In this document: piece after piece, positions 5,214-31,821 of the stretch | Numbering within the stretch: position 1 is the first letter of the stretch | How the letters are laid out: each line of letters opens with the position of its first letter | The notes under the pieces: generated by a model | Seen by the model: only the letters and a program-made list of their open reading frames with translations | Database searches by the model: none | Told to the model about the DNA's origin: nothing | Virus record (IMG/VR): IMGVR_UViG_3300024346_000307 | Coordinates: 1-31,821 of that record | Origin: a virus | Strand: one strand, 5' to 3' | Length of the DNA: 31,821 bases | Position numbers and translations under genes: made by a program

Positions 5214-7361
5214 TTATATAAGCTCGCAGAACTCAAATGTGACTCCGCAATTCACCGCTGCTCCTGTTTCTCGGTGCATAGTAAATATGAATGTATCATT
5301 TGGCGTTAAGTATATTTCTGTTCTACCCTCAAATAGTGCACTTGTTGCGTAAGTTAAATCTATTCCTACTCTTGCTCCAAAGATTAAAGTGGCTTTTGAA
5401 GTGTCAAATGTCATTTCATTAGTTACTGGTGGATTGTCATACTGAATGTATTCTAGATGTCCATCACCAAAATCAACCCAAGATTGATCATTAACCGTTA
5501 TTGCTGTGTTGTCTCTTGTAGCCCATACACGAATGATTGAACGTTGGTCTGCATAAGCACTAGCCAACAATGCTAAAGTGTCTCTAGTATTAATCAAACC
5601 GCCCACAGTGGCTTTACTTCTAATTGCAATTATTGGTATGTTAAAATTACCCGTTCCACTTATTGAAACCTGTCCGCTTTGATTGTTAATATTAACTGAT
5701 CCGTATGTTTTGCCGTTGTCTTTTCCACCTTCACTTGTGATGTCTACACAACCAAAATTCATTGGCGAATTATCACCTAAATTAATACTGTTCCATGCTG
5801 CTGGTAATGCTGGGTTGAACATTGATAATTGAGTTAAAGTACCCAAAGTATTAGAATTTGCAACCTCTTGTAAATTTATAAACCATTTATAATCTCCAGC
5901 TCCTCTCCATTGATATTGAATATCAAATACATTGTTTTTAGACAAATCAACCCCTACAGGAATAGTTAAAGAATATTCTGTGTCTACTGTTCCTCCTGCT
6001 GTTGTTGTTGTTCTAATTACACCAACTAAAGTACCTCCACTTTTAAGCCTGAAAAACACACCGCTTTCCGCTGTAAATGTTCCAAATTCCCTAGTCATTA
6101 ATGCAGTTGGATTTGTAAACCATCCAGCCGTTGAATATAAAGCCCCTCTGTTAGGTTCGTATCTTGGGTTTCTGTAAGACCTTAAACAAGTTTCATCATT
6201 TAAAGTTGCTCCAGCTAATACATTCAAAGAACCATCAACACTTGTTGAGTTCGTTATAGCCCCCTCAACACCATTAACAGTCTCGTACCATGTTGTAATT
6301 GGTACATTGTAAGTAAACATTCCATGAAATATAGAATTATCATTTACGCTTTTAGGTCTGTTCCAAGCATCATAAGATAAAGGTTCTTTACTCGCTGCGT
6401 TTGGTGTTGAATTAACATTTAGATCACCAACAGTAAAGGTTAATTTATCTGTTTGTGTTTTGATTGCTGCCAACGTTGTTTCGGTTGCAAAATCTTTTCC
6501 ATCAATAGAAGCTAACAAAAGCCTTGTTAATTCTAATGTAGCTTCTGTTGCCCTTGTGCTTAGTGCAACATCTAAGTTTGCAGTATCTAATTTAATGTTA
6601 TCTAAAACGGGTTTAATCAGTGCCAAAGTTGTTTCTGTAGCGTAATCCTTACCATCTAAAGAGGCAATTAAAACTCTAACCGCTTCTAAAGTTGTTTGTG
6701 TTGCAAAATCTTTACCCTCTAAGCTAGTCAATAAAGCATTTGCAGCGGTTGAAAGTGTTATCTGATCGTCTTGCTTTGCTTCAATTGCTAAACCTGCTGG
6801 AAGTGTTACAGAAGCATTTACATTTAAGTCTCCACCTGTGAAAGTTAATTGATCTGTTACAGCTTTAATAGCTGCTAAAGTGGCTTCTGTTGCTCTTGTA
6901 CTTAGTGCAACGTCTAAATTGACCGTATCTGTTTTAATAGTGTCTAAAACGGGCTTGATTAAAGCTAATGTTGTTTCTGTTGAATAATCTTTTCCATCAA
7001 GTGAAACTAGAAGCAGCCTAATTAATTCAAGCGTTGACTGTGTTGCAAAGTCTTTGGAATCTAAACTTGTTAAAAGTGTTATTTGATTATCTTGTTTTGC
7101 CTGTGTTGCAAAATCCTTTGAATCTAATGAAGCAAGTAACACCCTTGCAGCCTCCAAAGTTGCCTCTGTTGCAACCTTTCCATTAAGTTCTGTTAGTTCG
7201 TCAATTATTTCCTGTAGTTGTGGATTTGCCCCACCTCCTCCACTGGCATCTACTACCCTTTGAAGCAATACTAATACCATAGATTGATAACAACCATCAT
7301 AACGGTAATCAACATTTGCTGTTATTGGGTCTGGTGGTATTATTGGGTCAGGTGCTGCCAT
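5214..7361 (-). CDS. Large repeat-containing tail fibre / receptor-binding candidate
   Basis: This 715-residue protein has a short Pro/Gly-rich N-terminus. Residues about 64-312 hold tandem helical repeats with variations of SLDGKDFATETTLEAIR, and the C-terminal half (about 320-715) is globular and beta-rich. The repeats are interrupted by segments like LTFTGGDLNVN. Such helical spacer repeats followed by a unique C-terminal domain are common in phage fibres and tail proteins. The C-terminal region (for example STAGWFTNPTALMTREFGTF) looks like a carbohydrate- or receptor-binding module, but I cannot name a family. It lies within the lysis cluster, after the holin candidate (TAATG overlap), an unusual place for a fibre though seen in some phages. 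Function is inferred from architecture. Confidence 0.75.
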   Translation of the reverse strand: MAAPDPIIPPDPITANVDYRYDGCYQSMVLVLLQRVVDASGGGGANPQLQEIIDELTELNGKVATEATLEAARVLLASLDSKDFATQAKQDNQITLLTSLDSKDFATQSTLELIRLLLVSLDGKDYSTETTLALIKPVLDTIKTDTVNLDVALSTRATEATLAAIKAVTDQLTFTGGDLNVNASVTLPAGLAIEAKQDDQITLSTAANALLTSLEGKDFATQTTLEAVRVLIASLDGKDYATETTLALIKPVLDNIKLDTANLDVALSTRATEATLELTRLLLASIDGKDFATETTLAAIKTQTDKLTFTVGDLNVNSTPNAASKEPLSYDAWNRPKSVNDNSIFHGMFTYNVPITTWYETVNGVEGAITNSTSVDGSLNVLAGATLNDETCLRSYRNPRYEPNRGALYSTAGWFTNPTALMTREFGTFTAESGVFFRLKSGGTLVGVIRTTTTAGGTVDTEYSLTIPVGVDLSKNNVFDIQYQWRGAGDYKWFINLQEVANSNTLGTLTQLSMFNPALPAAWNSINLGDNSPMNFGCVDITSEGGKDNGKTYGSVNINNQSGQVSISGTGNFNIPIIAIRSKATVGGLINTRDTLALLASAYADQRSIIRVWATRDNTAITVNDQSWVDFGDGHLEYIQYDNPPVTNEMTFDTSKATLIFGARVGIDLTYATSALFEGRTEIYLTPNDTFIFTMHRETGAAVNCGVTFEFCELI
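6525..7007 (-). repeat. 345-base internal duplication in the large fibre gene
   Basis: The segment encoding residues 119-165 (6867-7007) recurs at residues 234-279 (6525-6662) almost unchanged, with a period of 115 codons. Both contain ETTLALIKPVLD and NLDVALSTRATEATL. Shorter units of about 22 residues (SLDGKDFATQ-type) occur between and around them, from about 6420 to 7175. The repeated DNA could recombine and change the length of the fibre stalk. Confidence 0.8.
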
Positions 7362-8883: not shown

Positions 8884-10347
8884 TTAACTTGCTGCTGTTA
8901 TTATTCCGTTTTTAATAGTAAAGTTTGTATAAGCTCCTGTTCCTGTGAATCCTTGAAAACCTACTGTAAAAAGGCTTCCATCGTCTGTTATTTTAAATAG
9001 TTCTGCTGGTGTTGAATTTTGAACTAATAAAGCCGTAGTTCCTGAAGTTGCGCCTGTGCCTTTTACTTGTAGTTTTGCAGTTGGTGTTGCTGTGCCTATT
9101 CCTACATTTTCACTAGAATCAACAAATAAAGAGGGTGTTGCAACACCATCTTTGTAAACTCCTAAAATATTGTTCGCTGCTCCTTTTGAGGCTATTTTTA
9201 AATAAGGATTACCCCCTAAACTTGTGTTTGGACTAACTCCAATTCCTACAGCTCCATTTGTGTTATAGTTAGGTGAAGCATAGACATTGCCATTTTTTTG
9301 CACAACAAATGTAAAAGCACCGCTATCTGTATCAACTCTTAACCTAGTGCTGCTAGTTCCATTCGCTACAAATAAACCTGCTGCATTTTGGATAAAAGAA
9401 CCAATAGTAACATCATTTTGCATCATAATAGCCCCGTCATCACGAATCAAAACATTTAATGCACCACCGCTTTTATTTACTCTAAGGGCGTATGTTTCGC
9501 CCTCTGCTTGTAAGACTAATTTAGACTGTGGGTCTATTACAGCCCCAAAACTAGTACTACCACCTGTAAAGCGTAAATCATTATTAGCCATTGTAATGGT
9601 AGAGGTTGTGGACATCGTGCCACCTGTGAAAATAGTGTCACCCCCCCCTACATTACTAGCCAAAACCTTTTTTAATACGCCCCCATCATTTATTAAAAAT
9701 TCTTCCGTACCTGCTAAACTTCCTAACGTTATCTTATTGCTTATTATCGTTGGTTGTGCTGTTAGTGCTCCACTTCCTGATACTTCTCCTGTATGTGTTG
9801 CGTTGGTAACTTTTAAATTGTTCGCTTCTACTTCGTTAAACTTTGCAGAAGGCATAACACCAGCAAAAGTTCCATCAGCAGCCGTTAATGTTACGTTAGT
9901 TCCTGTACTGGAATTAACATCCATTGCTGTAGATGATATTGGACCTAAAGATAAATTAGTTGCTCCTGTATCATCATGCACAACCCAATCAGCACCATCA
10001 TATTCTTTCCACTCGTTTGCAGTTACATCAAAGCATAAGTAACCAGCTAAAGGGCTAATTTTAACCGCTGTTGAGTTTGTAAACCTTACCCAATCATCAA
10101 AAGTAGCAGAACCCCAATCAGGATGAATCGTTCCACTTCCAGTTAATACAAATACATCACCATCAGCAGTTGAAGGAGCTGCCAAAGTACCATCGACAAA
10201 ATTAATTGCTTTGGGTAAAGACATTCTTTCCTCATAAGTTGAAAGCCCGTTTTCGTCTTTCGTTGGAAATGTGTTATTACCTACTAAATCAAATCCTTTA
10301 GGCGTGTGCTTATTAGCTTCGTCTAAATTTACATGCAAATTACTCAT
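8884..10347 (-). CDS. Tail fibre-like structural protein
   Basis: This 487-residue protein has a domain near residues 45-125 resembling the phage DUF2793 type, with the pattern LAAPSTADGDVFVLTG and CFDVTANEWKEYDGADW. It is followed by repetitive beta-rich segments and ends with a motif common in tail fibres, NVGIGTATPTAKLQVKG (near 416-432), and a final GFTGTGAYTNFTIKNG. No intramolecular chaperone domain with the classical catalytic dyad was seen. The ATG at 10347 overlaps the upstream stop as ATGA. A run of eight G on the coding strand (9641-9648, codons for Gly234-236) is unusual in AT-rich DNA. Likely role is host recognition. Confidence 0.75.
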   Translation of the reverse strand: MSNLHVNLDEANKHTPKGFDLVGNNTFPTKDENGLSTYEERMSLPKAINFVDGTLAAPSTADGDVFVLTGSGTIHPDWGSATFDDWVRFTNSTAVKISPLAGYLCFDVTANEWKEYDGADWVVHDDTGATNLSLGPISSTAMDVNSSTGTNVTLTAADGTFAGVMPSAKFNEVEANNLKVTNATHTGEVSGSGALTAQPTIISNKITLGSLAGTEEFLINDGGVLKKVLASNVGGGDTIFTGGTMSTTSTITMANNDLRFTGGSTSFGAVIDPQSKLVLQAEGETYALRVNKSGGALNVLIRDDGAIMMQNDVTIGSFIQNAAGLFVANGTSSTRLRVDTDSGAFTFVVQKNGNVYASPNYNTNGAVGIGVSPNTSLGGNPYLKIASKGAANNILGVYKDGVATPSLFVDSSENVGIGTATPTAKLQVKGTGATSGTTALLVQNSTPAELFKITDDGSLFTVGFQGFTGTGAYTNFTIKNGIITAAS

Positions 10348-10826
10348 ATCGGGAAGAATCTTCTAAAATTAGGTTCATAAAGTATAGCATCAGCATCAAA
10401 TAATGGATAATCATCTGAATTATTAAGTAAGAAATTACCTAATTCTTCACAATAGAAAAACTCTCTTTCCTTGATCTTTGCTAAAATCCTATCAGTGCTT
10501 TGTGCGTTTGCTGTTTTGCTGTACTGGGTGTGGTTTTCCATCATCCCTTGATTATTTGTTTCTCTCTCTAAATCCTTTTCATAACTAGCGAAAGCAACAG
10601 CGTAGCTTTCAGCAAGTTTTACCCTATCAAATAAAGCCTGATAAGCAGCATTTAAAGGTGGATTTGCAACAGCTAACACCAAAGCATCATATAAATCCTC
10701 TGTTAAGATGCACTTGATCACAGTATCTTCAATGAACTGTATAGAAGTATCAAAGAATGAAGGGTCAAATGCTACAACAGGTGTAACAATGCTCTTAATT
10801 TCTGTTGAGGTTAAAATATTACTCAT
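10344..10826 (-). CDS. Putative head-tail connector-like protein
   Basis: This 160-residue protein is mostly helical, starting MSNILTSTEIKSIVTPV, with a central helix pair (LTEDLYDALVLAVANPP and AYQALFDRVKLAESYAVAF) and a C-terminal YEPNFRRFFPI. The helical layout recalls gp6-like head-tail connector proteins, and similar Bacteroidota phage proteins (DUF6712-type) come to mind, though I cannot confirm this. It lies far from the head genes, between the tube-like gene and the fibre. Its start overlaps the stop of the small basic gene by 8 bases. Structural role is moderately supported; exact role is not. Confidence 0.5.
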   Translation of the reverse strand: MSNILTSTEIKSIVTPVVAFDPSFFDTSIQFIEDTVIKCILTEDLYDALVLAVANPPLNAAYQALFDRVKLAESYAVAFASYEKDLERETNNQGMMENHTQYSKTANAQSTDRILAKIKEREFFYCEELGNFLLNNSDDYPLFDADAILYEPNFRRFFPI

Positions 10827-11754: not shown

Positions 11755-14454
11755 TTAAAATGATGCTGAATCTTCAATCTGTTGTACTCTATTAGCAATC
11801 CCAGTTGTTTCACTTGCAACGTTTGTAACTTTTATACTTGCTTGTGCTTCTAGTATAGCATCTCTTAATTCTGTTAAATCAACACTTTCATTTTGTACTG
11901 ATACGCTTGGTGTAATTCCACCGTTAGCAAATTTCCCAATACTTCCAACATTTGGAGAACCAAAAGCAACCCCACCGCCATCTTGATTAATAGCAGATAA
12001 AAGATTCAAATGTTTAGATGTGCTTTTTTTGTTTATGATTGCTTCACCTCCTTCAGCTTCAATACCGTTACCAATTTGCACCCCTCCGTTAGCGTGTGAT
12101 GCACCATGAATTACACCACCTTTTGCAAACTTCTGACTTGCTATAATTCCAGATTGAATAGCACTACGAGCAACAGCAATACCAGTTAAAACCGCTGCTT
12201 GTGAAACACCAGCACCACCAAAGGTAACAGCATTGGCTGGATTGGCAGCAGCAGCAGCAGCAATAGCGCTTATTTCTTTTGCTAAATCAATAGCAACAAC
12301 AGCTAAATCTAATCTTTTCTTTTTATTAAACGCTCTCTTTTCAATGTCAAGCTTTTTCTTTTCAAAATCTTCTTGACTAATCGTTCCAGCTTCAAGCCTT
12401 GCATTTAGGTTTGCTAGTTCAATATCCTTTTCTCTTTCTGCTCTTGCTTGTGCTCCATCCACTAAAGCTTTTCCAGCTTGTGCTGCTAAATCAACCCCTT
12501 GTTGTCTTACCTGATCTTTGAAAGCTTCTTGTTCTTCAATCCTTACCTTTTCTTCTTCATCAATTCTTTTTTGTTCAGTGTTTTTTATTTCCTGTGTTGC
12601 AATGATATTTTCAGTTTCAACTTTTGTTACTTCTTCACCATTCAACTTAGCTTTTTCAACTCTTAAAGCTCCAATTTTGTCTTGAAGTTCTAACTCTTTT
12701 TGGTATTTTTCTTCGTTTGTTTCGTCTATTGTAGCAAGTTCTAACTGCCTTTGTAATTTTAAACTTTCAATTTGTGCATCAATTACTTTTGTTTGTCTTT
12801 TAATTTCATCATCAGCAGCTTTTTCTTTTGCTTTTTCTTCATCAGCAATAGCTTTTAGCCTGTCTTTTTCTGCTTTTTGTACGATTGAATTTGCTTTATT
12901 TCTAAGCAATAATCCTTTCTTCAATGCCCTTGCTTCAATTTCTTCTGTTCTTCCAATCAGTTCTTGAATTTCTTGCTTTGCTTCTCTGTCTGTATCGTTT
13001 GCTTCAGTCTTTAATTTAGCAAGTTGCAATTCTCTATTTATTTGATCCTTTTCAAGTTTCACATTTGCTTTTAGTTGCTCTTGTGCTTTTGCTGCTGCTG
13101 CTAATCTTACTTGTGTTGAATTGTTTGTATCTTCTGCAATGCTTCTTTGTTCTTCAAAGATTCTTAAACCCTTTGCAAGTTCTCTATTTAAGGTGATTTG
13201 TGCCACCTCAATTTCTTTTGTCAATCGGTCAATTTCTGAACCTCTTGCAGCAGCTTCACTAAAAAACTTTCCAGCTTCTTCACCAGCCTTTCTAACCTTA
13301 TCAGCATCAACACCTAGTGTCAATTCAATTTGTGCATCAGATAATTCTTTTGCAGAATCTAACACCGCTTGTTTAGCTAGTTTTAAATCATTTTCAATCG
13401 TTTCTTTATCAACTAATTTACCTAATAATGGAACATCAGCAACAGCTTTTTTAATTTCCGTTCCTAGTAATTTGATTGAATTAAGTATTAATTTATTGAT
13501 AGCTACAAACGCTTTAGGAATAGCTAAAACCCTTGTTATAAATTGATCTTTTATAAAGTTTCCAAAATCTTCCAGTGCTTGTTTTGGGTTTGCAATTGCT
13601 TTTTTTAATCTATCGAAACCCCTTGTCGCTAAATCCTGAACAACGCCAATTAAAGATTGAAAAACTTCTTGCAGTGGTCTTAATACGCTTGTAACTGCAT
13701 CAATTCCTCTTTGAGTAGATAAGAAAGCAGCAACCAAAGAACCCAAAGCAATAACAATAGCACCTATCCCTGTTGCGATTAGTGCCAGTCTAAAACCTTT
13801 TAAGCTTTTACTCGTTGTGTTTGTTGCTACTGCATTAGCTTTTTGTGCTGTGGTTACCTTTCCAAGTGCTCCTTGAATCGCACCCAATGAACGCTGAACA
13901 GCCATAATTTGACCACCAAAGCCACCCATAATCGGCAAAACGTCATTCATCGCTTCACCATAGTTACCAACATTTCTTTGAGTTCTTCCAGTTTCCTTTT
14001 CTAATTGCTTTAAAGATTTAACTTGATTATCAATACTTTTCTTTAATGCTATACCCTCTTTAGAATTTTGTCTACTGGCTTTTGTAAGCCTATCATATTC
14101 AAAAGTATCTCTTGCAAGTGCTGCTCTTAACTGAACTAAAGAACCCTTGTTTAATTGTTGTGCTTTGGTGTTGTTTATTAACTGCCTTTCGTTTTCTCTA
14201 TAAACCGCTTTATTTGCTTTTATAGCAGCATTATTTTCAACTTGTTGAGCTTTTACCTCTTTCAGTTGTTGCGTGTATTGGGTTCTTGTTATATTACCCT
14301 CTTTAACAGCCTTTGCTAAATCCTTTTCAGTTTGATTTAATGCTTTCTTTTGTGCTGCAAGTTTATCAATTTCAGTTTGTAATTTAACAAGCTTGTTAGT
14401 TTCCTTTTCTGCACCATCAAGGGAAACTTTTAATATAATTTCGTTATCAGCCAT
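11755..14454 (-). CDS. Tape measure protein
   Basis: This 899-residue protein is the second longest in the tail block and has the tape measure layout. There is a long N-terminal coiled coil (about 15-160, rich in Lys, Gln and Glu). A hydrophobic stretch follows at 222-245 (RLALIATGIGAIVIALGSLV). More coiled coil follows (about 390-720), then a Gly-rich C-terminal part with FAKGGVIHGASHANGGVQIG and AEGGEAIINK, typical of tape measures. Length would set a tail of roughly 130 nm if the usual relation holds, which is inference. It is involved in tail assembly and DNA passage through the host envelope. The tail completion and tip genes lie upstream and the tube-like gene downstream, an unusual order. 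Confidence 0.85.
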   Translation of the reverse strand: MADNEIILKVSLDGAEKETNKLVKLQTEIDKLAAQKKALNQTEKDLAKAVKEGNITRTQYTQQLKEVKAQQVENNAAIKANKAVYRENERQLINNTKAQQLNKGSLVQLRAALARDTFEYDRLTKASRQNSKEGIALKKSIDNQVKSLKQLEKETGRTQRNVGNYGEAMNDVLPIMGGFGGQIMAVQRSLGAIQGALGKVTTAQKANAVATNTTSKSLKGFRLALIATGIGAIVIALGSLVAAFLSTQRGIDAVTSVLRPLQEVFQSLIGVVQDLATRGFDRLKKAIANPKQALEDFGNFIKDQFITRVLAIPKAFVAINKLILNSIKLLGTEIKKAVADVPLLGKLVDKETIENDLKLAKQAVLDSAKELSDAQIELTLGVDADKVRKAGEEAGKFFSEAAARGSEIDRLTKEIEVAQITLNRELAKGLRIFEEQRSIAEDTNNSTQVRLAAAAKAQEQLKANVKLEKDQINRELQLAKLKTEANDTDREAKQEIQELIGRTEEIEARALKKGLLLRNKANSIVQKAEKDRLKAIADEEKAKEKAADDEIKRQTKVIDAQIESLKLQRQLELATIDETNEEKYQKELELQDKIGALRVEKAKLNGEEVTKVETENIIATQEIKNTEQKRIDEEEKVRIEEQEAFKDQVRQQGVDLAAQAGKALVDGAQARAEREKDIELANLNARLEAGTISQEDFEKKKLDIEKRAFNKKKRLDLAVVAIDLAKEISAIAAAAAANPANAVTFGGAGVSQAAVLTGIAVARSAIQSGIIASQKFAKGGVIHGASHANGGVQIGNGIEAEGGEAIINKKSTSKHLNLLSAINQDGGGVAFGSPNVGSIGKFANGGITPSVSVQNESVDLTELRDAILEAQASIKVTNVASETTGIANRVQQIEDSASF

Positions 14455-18676: not shown

Positions 18677-19177
18677 TTAAATCGTTTCAAATGTTGTTCT
18701 GTTCTTGCTTATTGTTTCTCTGATCAATACACTAACTTCTTTAGTGAACACATCAGCAACCATCTTAAATATAGTTTTTGCGTTTTCATCAAGCATAACC
18801 TTTATAAATTCGTCTCTTTTACCGCTTTTACTATACTGTAAGCTGCCCCTTGTTGGGCTTCCTTCGTCGTATATTTTCCTTCTTATAGCAAATGCAGCAC
18901 TTTTAATCTCTTTTTCTCCTGTTGCTATTCCTTTCTGTTCTACCCATTCAGCAAGTGCATAAGGATTTACCCATTTACCCTTATTAATCCCCTGATCAAC
19001 AAACTTAGCATAATCCTTACCCGTTATTGTAATATCAAACCCTCCACCGCTTTCAGTAACAGAATATTTCATTGTGTCTTGAAGTTGACCAGTTGCCCGA
19101 TGCCCCTGTTCATCCAACACCTTCACAAGCTGATCAACAATGTATTGTCCTACTATGTCAAGCCCTGATTTTATCAT
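18677..19177 (-). CDS. HK97 gp10-like neck / head-tail joining protein
   Basis: The frame extends back to GTG at 19195, but the ATG at 19177 overlaps the previous stop as ATGA and is the better start, giving 166 residues. The pattern RATGQLQDTM, then FDITITGKDYAKFVDQGINKGK and a C-terminal helical region, is that of HK97 gp10-like neck or minor tail proteins, where the sequence YAxFVxxG is well kept. Such proteins join head and tail. The next gene downstream is the FISUMP tail protein. Assignment is good by motif. Confidence 0.7.
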   Translation of the reverse strand: MIKSGLDIVGQYIVDQLVKVLDEQGHRATGQLQDTMKYSVTESGGGFDITITGKDYAKFVDQGINKGKWVNPYALAEWVEQKGIATGEKEIKSAAFAIRRKIYDEGSPTRGSLQYSKSGKRDEFIKVMLDENAKTIFKMVADVFTKEVSVLIRETISKNRTTFETI

Positions 19178-19644
19178 ACTGGTAATGGTGTACACTCACT
19201 TCTTATTGTTGCTGTAAATGGGATGAATACCTGTACCAATTTAGGGTTATGAACATCTAAACCAAAGAAGCCTTTGCCCCACTTTATTCTTTCTGTTGGT
19301 GCTAAATCTGTTCTTCTGTTAATTTCACCTAATATTTGAAGTGCTAATTCATTTAATTCGCTTTGCTTCACATAAGCCTCTTTAATTTGTCTTTCACCTT
19401 GCCAGAATGTGTCATAAAAAAACAACTTACCGCTAAAGGTTTGAAGCCCTGTTCTATTGTTTGACTGTGTGCTCATTATCTCAAAGTCTGGTGATCTTTC
19501 AAACAACATTGAAGGATAAGTATTTGCAGCAGCCCCGTTATTATACCAAACAGCATCGTAATGAAAGGATAAAGAATTGCCACTTAAAGGAACATAAGCC
19601 CCAGCAGCATCTTTAAATATGTTTACTAAATCTTCGTATGTCAT
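19174..19644 (-). CDS. Tail-completion / terminator-like protein
   Basis: This 156-residue protein starts MTYEDLVNIFKDAAGAYVPL. It has mixed alpha-beta character and contains a central block SGKLFFYDTFWQ and a C-terminal strand LVQVFIPFTATIRSECT. Place and size (before the gp10-like protein) fit a tail terminator or completion protein, but no clear signature is seen. Its ATG overlaps a TGA that belongs to the -1 frame extension of the preceding gene, which suggests that frame is translated. Its own stop overlaps the next ATG as ATGA. Confidence 0.5.
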   Translation of the reverse strand: MTYEDLVNIFKDAAGAYVPLSGNSLSFHYDAVWYNNGAAANTYPSMLFERSPDFEIMSTQSNNRTGLQTFSGKLFFYDTFWQGERQIKEAYVKQSELNELALQILGEINRRTDLAPTERIKWGKGFFGLDVHNPKLVQVFIPFTATIRSECTPLPV

Positions 19645-19903
19645 TGTGCTAAACTTAAGTTAAAAATCTTTAAAACGTCAAACGCTCTCTTTTCCATTAC
19701 TGATTCTAAAGGTGTTATGTTGTAAGTATTGAAAACTCCTTTTTCCGCAACTTTGATAGCAACCAACTCCCAAAAGTGGTTTTTGATAGTAATGCTTTGA
19801 GCTGTTGTCGAGCTGATAGCCGTTGAATTTGCGCTGGTGGGTTCTCTGTCGTAGATAAGTGGAAATAATCTTTGTATCTCTCTACCAACTCGACAAAAAA
19901 AAA
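19641..19903 (-). CDS. -1 frame extension of the 261-aa gene (probable frameshift product)
   Basis: At the T9 run on the minus strand (19895-19903), a -1 shift from the frame of the 261-residue gene opens 84 further codons ending at TGA 19641-19643, with sequence such as NHFWELVAIKVAEKGVFN and LESVMEKRAFDVLKIFN. In this frame the codons look like those of neighbouring genes (AGA for Arg, many GTT, GAA, GCT). Frame 0 beyond the run uses CGG, CTC, CGA and GGG. The -1 frame has a TAA only about 30 bases upstream of the run and no start codon near it, so it cannot start alone. Its stop overlaps the next ATG as ATGA. The product would be about 286 residues. Programmed shift or a one-base error in the run are both possible. 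Confidence 0.65.
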
Positions 19904-20500
19904 GTAAGCTGACCAGCCATAAAGAGCGTTAACTTCTCCAAATACCTTTGACCGTTTTACAACTTCTTCGCTGCTATCTTCTCCATCTGAATATAACAAA
20001 GCAAATAATTGCACCAGCGAACTGATTGCTGTTTGTTGCTTGTTAGCCTCTACCATTGAAGTCAATTGGCTACCTAGCATGAACTGCCTGAAATTAGCTT
20101 TACCAAATAACAACTCAGCACCGCTAATAGTTGTCAATGGCTCTATAAGCTTATAAGTTACTTTCTTATGGTCGAACTCTTTTAATTGAACATAAGACTC
20201 GGGTTGCTTCATAAACTGTTCACAGTGCTTATACAACCACTCTACGCTTATGCTCCCCTCCATTGGGATTAGTCTCAACTCTTCTTTAGTAAAGTCACTG
20301 AACAAAGTGATCCAGTGAATTTTAAACTCAAACAGCTTACTTTCTGGAATTTCCTTTTCTCCTTTACTCAATAAATAGTGCTTTAAATCACTATCAAGCC
20401 CTTGGATATACTTGTATGCAGTGGCTAATTCGTTGAGTGTAACATCAACAAATTCATCTTTAAGAGTTTTATTTAAGTCGTTTGCTTTAAGCTTCAACAT
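19715..20500 (-). CDS. Hypothetical 261-aa protein (frame 0), with T9 slip site
   Basis: The product starts MLKLKANDLNKTLKDEF and is mainly helical, with no recognised family. Residues 200-202 are FFF encoded by TTT TTT TTT, which gives the canonical slippery heptamer T TTT TTT in phase. Frame 0 continues 59 codons and stops at 19715. After the run it uses rare codons, so the last part may not be the main product (see the -1 extension). It overlaps the small basic gene at its start by 14 bases. It lies between the head block and the neck genes. Tail assembly chaperones also use -1 slips but usually lie next to the tape measure, so that identity is not established here. Confidence 0.6.
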   Translation of the reverse strand: MLKLKANDLNKTLKDEFVDVTLNELATAYKYIQGLDSDLKHYLLSKGEKEIPESKLFEFKIHWITLFSDFTKEELRLIPMEGSISVEWLYKHCEQFMKQPESYVQLKEFDHKKVTYKLIEPLTTISGAELLFGKANFRQFMLGSQLTSMVEANKQQTAISSLVQLFALLYSDGEDSSEEVVKRSKVFGEVNALYGWSAYFFFVELVERYKDYFHLSTTENPPAQIQRLSARQQLKALLSKTTFGSWLLSKLRKKEFSILTT

Positions 20501-20681
20501 TTCCTAAGCCTTTTTCAATTAAGTGTTTAGCCATTAAACCATTCATTTCAAAAGTATCACCTTTCTTCATGTGTTTGCTATCCTTATCAGCTACAAACTT
20601 GTATATTTTCTTATCATCTAACACAACAGCCTTCTTCTTTGGTGCTGCTTTCTTCGCTGGACTTGCTTTTTTCGTTGCCAT
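20487..20681 (-). CDS. Small basic protein (64 aa) after the capsid gene
   Basis: This protein begins MATKKASPAKKAAPKKKA, a Lys/Ala/Pro-rich histone-like stretch, followed by a short domain IYKFVADKDSKHMKKGDTFE and NGLMAKHLIEKGLGNV. The plan resembles the 60-residue protein at 10819-11001. It lies after the capsid terminator, so it would be made from read-through or from a weak site TATATTTA at 20706-20713 on the minus strand. A head or connector role, or binding to packaged DNA, is possible. No specific family can be named. Confidence 0.7.
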   Translation of the reverse strand: MATKKASPAKKAAPKKKAVVLDDKKIYKFVADKDSKHMKKGDTFEMNGLMAKHLIEKGLGNVEA

Positions 20682-20726: not shown

Positions 20727-20762
20727 AAAAAAAAAGGGCTATCCTAAGACAGCCCCTTTTTT
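20727..20762 (-). terminator. Strong intrinsic terminator after the major capsid gene
   Basis: On the minus strand the perfect 8-pair stem GGGCTGTC (20748-20755) / GATAGCCC (20736-20743), with one G-U pair and a 4-base loop, is followed by a run of nine T. It begins about 25 bases past the capsid stop. It should cap most transcripts ending at the capsid gene, with downstream genes made by read-through or a second promoter. Confidence 0.9.
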
Positions 20763-23056: not shown

Positions 23057-24230
23057 CTAAACCAAGTGTTGTAATCAATTCCCTTTTTTCTTCCTGTGTC
23101 ATTTCGTTTAACAATGCTGCACTAATATTATTAGGTAATTCCTTCAATACATCAGCAGTGGTTTTGTTAAGCTGCTCAATTTCTTCTGTAGCTATTCTTA
23201 AATAATAACTTTCACCAGTAACATCATTCAAAGGATTAAACAAATTCTTTTCAAATTCGTTTATGAAGTGCTTAACATTAGGGATAACTGCGTTAGTATA
23301 CATCGCTCTGTTTGCTTCTTTGTAGTTAGAATAAGTGTTGCTCTGATAATCCCCAAACAATTGAGAAGGCAAATTCAAAGCTCTACAAACTGACCTAACG
23401 TGTGGCAATTGTGATTCAATCAGCTTCATGTCATTAGCATTCATTCCAAGCTGTGTAAAGTCTACTGCTTGTTCAACAACCTCAACTTTGTTAAACTTTT
23501 CAGCACCACCAGTCAAACCAACAAAAGCTTTTCTAACTACTTCCATAACTGAATTTGAGAAACCTAATGCCCCAGCATCACCGCTGGAAGCCTTTGGGCT
23601 AATAAGCCCACTAATACCCCTATTTTTAAGCATTGCCTTTTCTGCTGTTGCTCTATTGTTTGAAGCTGTTACCGTTTCCCACACCGCAGCAATTGGAGAA
23701 AGTCCACCCTGTTGCTCTTGTAGTTGTGAAGGGTCATAATATTCTAATATTATTAATTCTTCTGGAAAGTATTTGTAAATCCTTGTATTGTCAGTGAATT
23801 GGTAGTAAGGTGTTTGTTCAAAATATCCTGTGGTTACTTGTGCTGGTTCAACTTCTTGAGTAGGTAGTACCCAAAGTTCATTGGTTTCAAATCCTACCAT
23901 TTCTGACTTCTTCAATGTGTAAGCCTTACCATGAAGAAATAAATTGATAAAAAGCTTGTACATTGATTCTTGTTTACCTTGCTTACTGTTCCACTGATCA
24001 TAGAACATTTGATAAACTGGATCATTTGCTTGTACTACATCTTCACCATTCATAAGTTTCAAAGGCAAAGCTGAACAAGCATGCGCAAGTGATGAAACAC
24101 AAGCATAAACTAATTCATTCCCAAGAAACCCTTCTCTTACAATTTCGTCTGATGTTGCTTTTTTATAGTTGTACCCATTAATTACATTCCAAAATTCGGG
24201 TGTTGTTGTGCTTTGATCAAATACATTCAT
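23043..24230 (-). CDS. Portal protein (HK97 family)
   Basis: This 395-residue protein matches the HK97-like portal family: LVYACVSSLAHACSALPLKL near the N-terminus, YKLFINLFLHGKAYTLK, GGLSPIAAVWETVTASNNRA, the block KFNKVEVVEQAVDFTQLG, then SVCRALNLPSQLFGDYQSNT and SNYKEANRAMYTNAVIP. Twelve copies form the DNA entry ring of the head. It lies 23 bases after TerL, the normal order. Length is typical. ATG at 24230 is clear. Confidence 0.9.
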   Translation of the reverse strand: MNVFDQSTTTPEFWNVINGYNYKKATSDEIVREGFLGNELVYACVSSLAHACSALPLKLMNGEDVVQANDPVYQMFYDQWNSKQGKQESMYKLFINLFLHGKAYTLKKSEMVGFETNELWVLPTQEVEPAQVTTGYFEQTPYYQFTDNTRIYKYFPEELIILEYYDPSQLQEQQGGLSPIAAVWETVTASNNRATAEKAMLKNRGISGLISPKASSGDAGALGFSNSVMEVVRKAFVGLTGGAEKFNKVEVVEQAVDFTQLGMNANDMKLIESQLPHVRSVCRALNLPSQLFGDYQSNTYSNYKEANRAMYTNAVIPNVKHFINEFEKNLFNPLNDVTGESYYLRIATEEIEQLNKTTADVLKELPNNISAALLNEMTQEEKRELITTLGLDGKG

Positions 24231-29393: not shown

Positions 29394-31748
29394 TTAAAAC
29401 GGGCATTTAGTTTCTTCTTCTTCTTCTGTTTCTTCATTAAAATAAAAATAATTAGCTCCATTAAATTTACTTTCTCTTAATTGGATGTCATTAAAATCAC
29501 AATAGGATTTAAGTTTTGAGTAAAATTTTTGTGGTGAAGTAAATTTTGCAGCCTGATAATAATTAGCTTCAAAGTTCTTTCTAAACTCTACTTTGTTAAT
29601 CTTTAAACCTTCAAAGTTTTGCGATTCCATAAATTCAATAAATTCAGGACCCATTTCATTCTTAAATTTTCTGAATTCTAAATTCACCTTATCAGATTGC
29701 ACTAAACCGTTTTTAAGGAAGAACTGCACACACCTTATCATAAAATTGTCAAACTTCTCCCATTCTTCACCATCCCATTCAGTGAAAAACAAGTGTCCAA
29801 ATTCGTTTTGCGGTGTGTATTTAGCATTGAAATAATTTGCTATTTCAACTTCAAAAACCCTTCTTTCATGACTATCACCATCGCCTTTTATGGTGTAGTT
29901 TGTTGCTATTGATATTTTTGGGCTTTCTTCAAACGGTATTTGATATGCATCTTTGCCTTTCTTCTCTACTGTCATTCCTGACGTAACGATTGAAAACAAG
30001 CTTTTAAAGTCAAAATGCTGAGGCACATCATCCAAAAGCAAAATTTGTGTGTCTTTGTTTACCTTCTGGTAAGCAAATTGATTCTTATAATCAAACTTTT
30101 TACCATCCTCAATTACTATGTTTTTGATGTGTCCTATTGCTTTGTGAATTAATCCCTTTCCTGATCCTCCATTGGGCACATCTTCGCTTATCATTTCATC
30201 ATTAAAAATAATCGACTTTTGATTCCCTTCATTTTGGTAACTGTGCATTAAATAACCAATAACAGATTTCAAAGTATAGTATCTGTCTTCGTTTTCTGCT
30301 GAAACCTTCCAAAGAAACGTTTTGAAAACACCATCAGATTCATCTTTTAGTTTAAAATCTCTTTTTATTACTTGATTTTCCCAAATAAGATCAGGAATAT
30401 CAGAATATTTTAACACCTCTATGTTGTCTTTTGTTGTCTTTACCGCTGTGTTTTGGTAGTAAACATAAGACGTATCAATTGTATCTCTATTTACCTTTAC
30501 ATCTTTTGTTTTTATCATAGACAAAAACTCTCTTTTGAAAAAGGAAGTAGTACCAGCCATCAATTCGTACGGTTCGTATTGCCCTCTACTTTCTAAATCT
30601 TCAAGCGTAAAATCTTTTATTTTTGTTTCCTGAAATAGAGAAATGAAATTCTTATCATTCTTTACAAAATGGTAAGCATCTTTTTCTGAATCTGCATAGT
30701 ATTTAAAAATATTATTATGCTCTAAGTACTTTTTGAATCTATACTTTGAAAGTCTTATCTGATCATTTTCGGTATAAAACCAGTATTCATCTTCTTTTAA
30801 ATCTTCCTTATGCTTTTCAAATTCTTCTTTTACCTTCTCAAAATCAACTCCTTTGATTTTATTTTTAAGCTTATCAATATTGCCTCCAGCTATTGCAAGA
30901 TGTTTAATCTCACTTATTGTATTTTTATCTTCAAAAGACCTTGTGTTGAACTCCTTTGTGTATCTATAAGCTGAATCTATAAGCTTATTTATCTCATTCT
31001 CTTTCCCTCCTGAATCATACCTTTGTAAATACTCAACACAAGTACTTTTATCAATCCCAAAAGCATTCATTTGCCTAGCATAAGCATGAAGATTATTGTT
31101 TCTGTTGGTTGTAGTCCATTTCTTTTTAAACCACTTTTCAAGCATTTCAGCTACTTCATTTTTATCAGTTATAGGAATGTTGACAATCTTTGTTTCTACT
31201 GGTAAAGGTCTATGAAACTTATCTGTAAATGTTTCACTGTCATTATTCAAATAAAGCTCATCGTCATAAGACAAATAGCAAGCTCTGGCAATGTCTTTTG
31301 TACCCTTGTCTAATTCGTGATACTGTTGAAAGTGGTTAATTAACTCAATGTAATAGTCTTGATAATCGTTGTTATTGTCTACACTAGGAATTTTCACAAG
31401 TACTTTTAACCCATCACCCGATGGAGACTGAAAAGAAGAAAAAGTATATTTATCGCTGTTTATTTCTTGCCTAATTTCTTCAAGGTTCTGAACGTTGTCA
31501 AAGTCTAAACAAGCTAAACCAGAAGAAGCCTTTAGGTTTGCGTTTGATCTACTTGTAAATACTCCCGAAAAAGTTGCATAAGGTAATTTACTTTTTAATT
31601 GATTACGTTTTGCCTTATCACTTTCAATTCTAATATTAGCAATCTTTGTTTTATAAGATCCGTTCCTAATACCTTCAAGCACTTTTATTGCTGATGTATC
31701 TTTGAGTGGAGCTACTGATTTTATGTCTTTAAATACGCTTATCTTCAT
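29394..31748 (-). CDS. Primase-helicase fusion (BT4734-like primase + SF3 helicase)
   Basis: This 784-residue protein has an N-terminal BT4734/VirE_N-like primase domain of the archaeo-eukaryotic type (about 1-185). It shows the metal-binding pair LDFDN (Asp82, Asp84), the loop SPSGDGLK (108-115) and a third motif near KDIARACYLS (Asp152). A PriCT-like helical part (about 195-265) and a charged linker follow. The SF3 helicase part (about 500-680) has Walker A NGGSGKGL (526-533), Walker B ILLLDD (569-574) and motif C SIATNY with Asn617. It would both prime and unwind at the fork. Its N-terminal 197 codons recur at the left window end as a divergent copy. Confidence 0.9.
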   Translation of the reverse strand: MKISVFKDIKSVAPLKDTSAIKVLEGIRNGSYKTKIANIRIESDKAKRNQLKSKLPYATFSGVFTSRSNANLKASSGLACLDFDNVQNLEEIRQEINSDKYTFSSFQSPSGDGLKVLVKIPSVDNNNDYQDYYIELINHFQQYHELDKGTKDIARACYLSYDDELYLNNDSETFTDKFHRPLPVETKIVNIPITDKNEVAEMLEKWFKKKWTTTNRNNNLHAYARQMNAFGIDKSTCVEYLQRYDSGGKENEINKLIDSAYRYTKEFNTRSFEDKNTISEIKHLAIAGGNIDKLKNKIKGVDFEKVKEEFEKHKEDLKEDEYWFYTENDQIRLSKYRFKKYLEHNNIFKYYADSEKDAYHFVKNDKNFISLFQETKIKDFTLEDLESRGQYEPYELMAGTTSFFKREFLSMIKTKDVKVNRDTIDTSYVYYQNTAVKTTKDNIEVLKYSDIPDLIWENQVIKRDFKLKDESDGVFKTFLWKVSAENEDRYYTLKSVIGYLMHSYQNEGNQKSIIFNDEMISEDVPNGGSGKGLIHKAIGHIKNIVIEDGKKFDYKNQFAYQKVNKDTQILLLDDVPQHFDFKSLFSIVTSGMTVEKKGKDAYQIPFEESPKISIATNYTIKGDGDSHERRVFEVEIANYFNAKYTPQNEFGHLFFTEWDGEEWEKFDNFMIRCVQFFLKNGLVQSDKVNLEFRKFKNEMGPEFIEFMESQNFEGLKINKVEFRKNFEANYYQAAKFTSPQKFYSKLKSYCDFNDIQLRESKFNGANYFYFNEETEEEEETKCPF

Positions 31749-31821
31749 CTTATTTTAAGTTTAGGTAAATACAAAATTTCCCATTGTCGTCTGCTATATT
31801 CATAAATGCAAAATCTATAAA
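31156..31821. repeat. Divergent terminal direct repeat, right copy
   Basis: This is the counterpart of 1-666 (same length, no gaps, 24 mismatches). It carries the start of the complete primase gene and the 3' end of the small gene that precedes it. It is the copy joined to the full primase gene in this window. If the ends are one locus, position 31156 corresponds to position 1. Confidence 0.9.
31750..31821 (-). CDS. 3' end of small hypothetical gene (second copy, cut by window edge)
   Basis: The last 23 codons plus stop of the gene at 595-879 recur here without a single base change, ending one base before the primase ATG at 31748. The rest lies beyond the window edge. It is most likely the same gene on a circular map. 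Confidence 0.8.
   Translation of the reverse strand, partial: FIDFAFMNIADDNGKFCIYLNLK

Follow-up and report, generated by a model that had tools for sequence, protein, structure and literature searches.

Strong Support for a Programmed −1 Frame Change at a Run of Nine T

Comparison with related phages strongly supports a programmed −1 frame change at a run of nine T (T9) in a gene located between the head and tail genes of the viral record IMGVR_UViG_3300024346_000307 (31,821 nucleotides, from a phage of flavobacteria; the whole of this stretch is called the window below), from which proteins of 261 and 286 residues would be made. In the explanation that we favor, and to which we assign as a whole a probability of about 0.58, RNA polymerase would slip on the run, the 286-residue form would correspond to an ancestral protein, and the two forms would serve together in assembly.

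The gene lies on the minus strand. Its frame-0 open reading frame (ORF), included in the ORF list and also present in relatives, starts with the ATG at 20500 and stops at 19715 (19715–20500 with the stop codon; 261 aa), and the preceding gene (64 aa, minus strand, 20487–20681) overlaps its start by 14 nt. Codons 199 to 202 read TAC TTT TTT TTT and are followed by GTC, the nine T occupying positions 19895–19903 of the minus, coding strand. Past the run, frame 0 remains open for 59 codons (177 nt), which form with their stop codon a dual-coded stretch (minus strand, 19715–19894). The open −1 frame spans 19928 to 19641; 11 of its codons precede the end of the run, and no ATG, GTG, or TTG occurs in it until 43 codons past the run, none being present before codon 55 of its 95. 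Its extension past the run (minus strand, 19641–19895) comprises 84 codons and a stop codon, the latter being part of an ATGA overlap (minus strand, 19641–19644) with the start of the next gene (156 aa, minus strand, 19174–19644). One base added at the run would give the 286-residue trans-frame product, with the peptide WSAYFFFCR at the junction of the fusion and EIQR and LFPLIYDR in the −1 tail; DYFHLSTTENPPAQIQR belongs to frame 0.

The main elements had been described in the first-pass annotation (the run in the appropriate phase, the −1 frame devoid of a start of its own, its 84 codons and its ATGA end, the 59 open codons of frame 0, and the lengths of both forms), and they were recovered here from the sequence. 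Its proposal of a −1 slip producing the two forms holds for the programmed frame change; a ribosomal slip is not a necessary part of it.

A homologue of the 156-aa gene follows the frame-shifted gene at the same place in every family member with enough downstream sequence. The candidate tape measure gene (11755–14454) is located 5.2 kb downstream, with genes of 156, 172, 612, and 792 aa in between, in agreement with the distance of more than 5 kb noted previously. T runs in the remaining long genes of the window reach seven at most. T9 occurs twice more on the coding strand, once in the interval that separates the capsid gene from the 64-aa gene (20727–20735) and once at the start of a TTG-initiated ORF (880–888), for which the ATG that follows the run may be the true start. 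The window also contains eight consecutive G in the coding strand of a 487-aa fibre-like gene (9641–9648), a stretch that could be slippage-prone or phase-variable, and three direct repeats of 92 nt, 68–74% identical, within a 715-aa gene (repeats at 6460–7046, gene at 5214–7361). Its two ends (1–666 and 31156–31821) form a 666-nt repeat whose copies show 24 mismatches, some of which cluster at 443–458; the window is likely to be a circularly permuted genome that was closed with sequence from two strains, and the record does not have a clean terminal repeat.

Conservation of the Run among Relatives

Relatives were gathered by scanning IMG/VR and one genome collection, by a peptide-pattern scan tolerant of TTC codons, and by a scan anchored on the capsid gene. 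Besides the window, 14 distinct homologous genes were obtained (L003/L015, L004, L005, L006, L007, L009, L011, L016, L018, L022, L023, L108, L042, and L035), of which L042 and L035 are distant members, with 45% and 41% identity. A run of exactly nine T was present in the same phase in all 14, and a run of eight or ten in none. In the relatives with sufficiently long contigs, both frames are kept, with frame-0 tails of 59–64 codons and −1 tails of 84–96 codons ending at the next gene; L003/L015 is cut off by the end of its contig.

The codons of the run are also fixed. TAC followed by three TTT was found in 12 of the 12 aligned members, and TAT, which would extend the run to ten T, never precedes it, whereas the other invariant Tyr and Phe columns (9/9, same 12 members) mix both codons. 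Among the loci fetched at that stage, runs of at least eight joining a long ORF to an offset ORF were restricted to this family, to contig L101 (see below), and to one weak case with eight T. No further member emerged when 397 genomes from the family to which the flavobacterial metagenome-assembled genome represented by L011 belongs were searched for prophages, searches for relatives of L101, L042, and L035 returned only these contigs themselves, and the window gene had no match among annotated phages in DNA and protein searches.

Selection on Both Frames

The protein encoded by the −1 tail is strongly conserved in all relatives, and this conservation begins directly at the run. Divergence at −1 wobble positions was 0.09–0.15 over the first 20 codons past the run, 0.28–0.38 over the rest of the overlap, and 0.40 in the part where only the −1 frame is coding; upstream of the run, where only frame 0 is coding, frame-0 wobble divergence was 0.53. 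The strongest double constraint is therefore seen in the first ~20 codons (about 19835–19894 in the window). Among the −1 tails, a single large insertion was seen, of 12 aa in L016, and it is located past the frame-0 stop.

We then held the −1 protein fixed, redrew its synonymous codons, and determined how often frame 0 stayed open for the observed length. The chance of this was 0.0015–0.025 in each of 11 members; it was 0.005 for L042, 0.0004 for L035, 0.0009 for L108, and 0.0003 for L101, in all of which frame 0 is actually open. These probabilities should not simply be multiplied, as the sequences share ancestry, although the diverged members are nearly independent. As a control, none of 668 windows of 59 codons was open in that frame in the other genes of the window phage, and only 28 of 5534 (0.5%) were open in the fetched loci. 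Judged by these sequence patterns, the frame-0 tail is under selection too, the first 20 codons past the run are constrained in both frames, and the frame-0 end is selected in its own right and is not a poorly used leftover. At this level, the comparisons show that the run, both frames, and their ends have been kept by selection across diverged phages.

Nine-T Runs in Other Codon Phases

A T9 run was also found in the isolate Nonlabens P12024S (NC_018271, positions 23136–23827 for the gene) and in the near-identical P12024L, here as CTT TTT TTT TAT (phase 1) and followed by 80 codons of −1 tail. In P12024S, a portion of this tail has been annotated as a separate 55-aa gene, gp39, and it is probable that gp38 and gp39 are one trans-frame protein wrongly annotated as two hypothetical genes. 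The P12024S pair resembles the window gene in its predicted fold, T9 run, and −1 tail, but differs from it in the phase of the run (1 instead of 0) and in a frame-0 tail of just 24 codons.

In contig L101 (8369–9159; also in L104), the run reads TGT TTT TTT TTG (phase 2), with a frame-0 tail of 82 codons and a −1 tail of 87 codons. This gene occupies a comparable genome position, ahead of genes encoding 156 and 149 aa; no homology to the family was detectable by profile comparison, and the case stands on a single contig. The run is thus found in three codon phases, 0 in the family, 1 in P12024S and P12024L, and 2 in L101, and always with nine T.

Mechanism of the Frame Change

We consider transcriptional slippage by RNA polymerase to be the better supported mechanism, with odds moderately above even on the sequence patterns at hand. 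RNA polymerase would slip on T9, and a fraction of the transcripts would gain one U (U9 to U10); by ordinary translation, U9 mRNA would then give the 261-residue protein and U10 mRNA the 286-residue protein, while U11 mRNA would give a 206-residue truncation. Bacterial RNA polymerase is reported to slip where nine A or nine T occur in a row (Atkins et al., PMC5009743), and when homologues keep a 9A or 9T run at the same length, purposeful transcriptional slippage has been regarded as very likely (Baranov et al., PMC1088944). An A/T run of at least eight with conserved length, as used to recognize such slippage (PMC1088944, PMC3711429), is what we observed here.

The main competitor, doubtful in our opinion but to be taken seriously, is ribosomal −1 frameshifting at T TTT TTT, in which the mRNA is uniform and some ribosomes slip back by one base as in classical chaperone genes. 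The phage precedent is indeed ribosomal (PMC5009743, PMC3711429), and this heptamer is in the right phase in the window, in P12024S, and in L101; that it is a legal ribosomal site in all three phases counts against polymerase slippage, as does the possibility that the last T is fixed simply by the TGT (Cys) codon that follows the run. However, nine T are needed for the heptamer only in phase 0, whereas eight would suffice in phase 1 and seven in phase 2; the run nevertheless has nine T in every phase. Ribosomal slippage likewise leaves unexplained why TAC and never TAT precedes the run, and in E. coli ribosomes shift poorly at U_UUU_UUU (PMC5009743). As to stimulators, a weak AU hairpin 14 nt downstream of the run is conserved and a longer stem is present in the window, but no strong conserved RNA structure was detected downstream in models of stem-loop folding (z-scores from −3.3 to +0.7 among sequences). 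The window stem just past the run (z = −3.1) was considered as a stimulator and rejected, as it is absent in most relatives. Slippage by RNA polymerase is favored over a ribosomal shift because the length of the run is conserved while its phase varies, because no strong conserved structure follows it, and because exact T9 in three phases with TAC and never TAT fits it better.

Two other readings were weighed. The −1 frame might encode a separate protein through internal initiation or reinitiation, without any fusion, as the 55-aa gene annotated in P12024S would imply. This is very improbable, since the window −1 frame offers none of the three start codons before its codon 55, conservation begins at the run itself, and remote homologues hold both parts in one chain. 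Still less credible is the idea that assembly or sequencing introduced a one-base error, or that the homopolymer is phase-variable and in truth ten long. Homopolymers are error-prone and mutable, and the first-pass annotation had raised such an error as an alternative; as far as sequences can tell, it is excluded because independent relatives all keep exactly T9, and the openness of frame 0 beyond the run also argues against it.

Remote Homologues Encoded in One Frame

No family was found for the window protein in Pfam, PHROGs, or NCBIfam, and no match in the PDB by sequence or fold; the one sub-threshold match in Rfam was not credible. An AlphaFold model of the shared part plus 20 codons, computed from an alignment of 15 rows, reached a pLDDT of 74 and a pTM of 0.70, while that of the full-length frame-0 form (11 rows) was too poor for use. 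Foldseek returned 28 viral proteins at E < 1e-3, with TM scores up to 0.73. Matches included Nonlabens P12024S gp38 (E 1.4e-4, TM 0.50–0.62) and, weakly, gp10 of Flavobacterium phage 6H (R9VW65, TM 0.32–0.35).

With the 6H protein as a query, tblastn reached Flavobacterium, Cellulophaga, Polaribacter, and Microcystis phages. In FPSV-F7, laban6-1, Ingeline, Leef_1, and a Microcystis phage, the protein is encoded by a single ORF of 259–301 aa, and these single-frame ORFs match PHROG 25418. An LFF motif encoded with six T is found at the junction in laban6-1, Ingeline, and the Microcystis phage. When the −1 fusion was compared by hhalign with the single-frame set, the two aligned across the junction with an E-value of 0.0019, but with a probability of only 14%. 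Siphovirus morphology has been reported for laban6-1, Ingeline, and Leef (PMC7077304, PMC8776804). Predicted fold similarity and weak profile scores link the window protein to a siphophage family of which Flavobacterium FPSV-F7, laban6-1, and Cellulophaga Ingeline provide probable members.

The PHROG 25418 proteins (the 6H group, laban6-1, and Ingeline, and weakly Polaribacter Leef_1 and the Microcystis phage) resemble the window gene product in predicted fold (weakly, through 6H R9VW65), in an FF motif near the junction, in the same kind of C-terminal part, and in being followed by a gene of ~150–200 aa. They differ in having six T or no run at the junction and one uninterrupted ORF of 259–301 aa. 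The first-pass annotation had named an uninterrupted homologue as evidence that would speak against the shift; such homologues were encountered, but only very remote ones and never inside the family. As these probable family members use a single frame for the protein, its ancestral full-length version is probably the 286-residue form. In this history, the 286-residue form would be an ancestral two-part protein, still made from one frame in other flavobacterial siphophages, and the 261-residue form would have its C-terminal part swapped for a different tail.

Phage 6H itself (NC_021867) might be taken for a shifted case. Its gp10 is broken by a garbled patch of ~30 nt (about 10350–10390), likely a sequence error or a local mutation. 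We did not count it, as FPSV-F7, a close relative (98.9% identical), reads through in one frame.

Proposed Role and Significance

The most economical role, by analogy, would be that of a two-form assembly factor, the two forms being made in a set ratio and acting in head-tail or tail assembly like the gpG/gpGT pair of lambda. It is unlikely, whatever the mechanism of the frame change, that the gene encodes a tail assembly chaperone of the lambda type and has simply become separated from the tape measure gene. The production of two forms by a −1 shift in a siphophage context would fit such an origin, no other obvious chaperone gene lies beside the tape measure gene of the window, and the Ingeline homologue is located three genes ahead of its own. 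However, no chaperone was matched in Pfam, PHROGs, or NCBIfam, none was present at E < 1e-3 in the fold search, and the probable relatives manage without a shift. The gene does not lie between the tail tube and tape measure genes. Its frame-0 tail is 177 nt long, whereas frame 0 ends on average ~26 nt past the shift in annotated phage cases (PMC10885494). We therefore term the gene chaperone-like and not a chaperone, because three features that define the family (position, a fold or sequence match, and a short frame-0 tail) were looked for and not found; the comparison with tail assembly chaperones made in the first-pass annotation is retained as an analogy, and membership in the lambda-type family is not supported. 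In more distant relatives (L073, 8533–9389, and similarly L095, L078, and L067), a pair of ORFs of ~145–165 aa overlapping by 14–77 nt was observed shortly before the tape measure gene, and these are possibly neck genes or a separate chaperone pair.

It is conceivable, at odds that we place slightly below even, that flavobacterial siphophages have repeatedly made a conserved pair of Phe codons in an ancestral assembly protein into a T9 RNA-polymerase switch, giving two forms with alternative C-terminal parts from the same ~60 codons by slippage independent of codon phase. The gene family combines a programmed frame change with a long stretch that codes in two frames, whereas its probable remote relatives lack the shift. 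Frame changes in phage assembly genes are usually assumed to be ribosomal, and conservation of length and not of phase would mean that phages also set the ratios of assembly proteins by slippage of RNA polymerase. The ~60 codons selected in both frames provide a clear natural case of dual coding, and the single-frame relatives offer a direct before-and-after comparison for the evolution of the switch. As gene callers output the 261-residue form alone or, for P12024S, a pair of hypothetical genes, the true protein is misannotated, including in cultured phages.

Comparison with Known Frame-Change Systems

Like gpG/gpGT of lambda, the window gene belongs to the morphogenesis region of a long-tailed phage and would give two products that share an N-terminus through a −1 change. 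Unlike gpG/gpGT, it is not beside the tape measure gene, shows no match to them in sequence or fold, and carries a run of nine T; its shared part, of ~202 aa, leads into long alternative tails (59 and 84 codons), and single-frame homologues exist.

In its exact nine-base run conserved among homologues, and in an extended product that would arise from one added base, the gene resembles the systems with transcriptional slippage at 9A or 9T, such as type III secretion genes of Shigella, dnaX of Thermus, and IS elements (PMC5009743, PMC1088944). It differs from them in that slippage is here proposed from sequence, in being a phage morphogenesis gene, and in the ~60 codons past the run that are selected in both frames.
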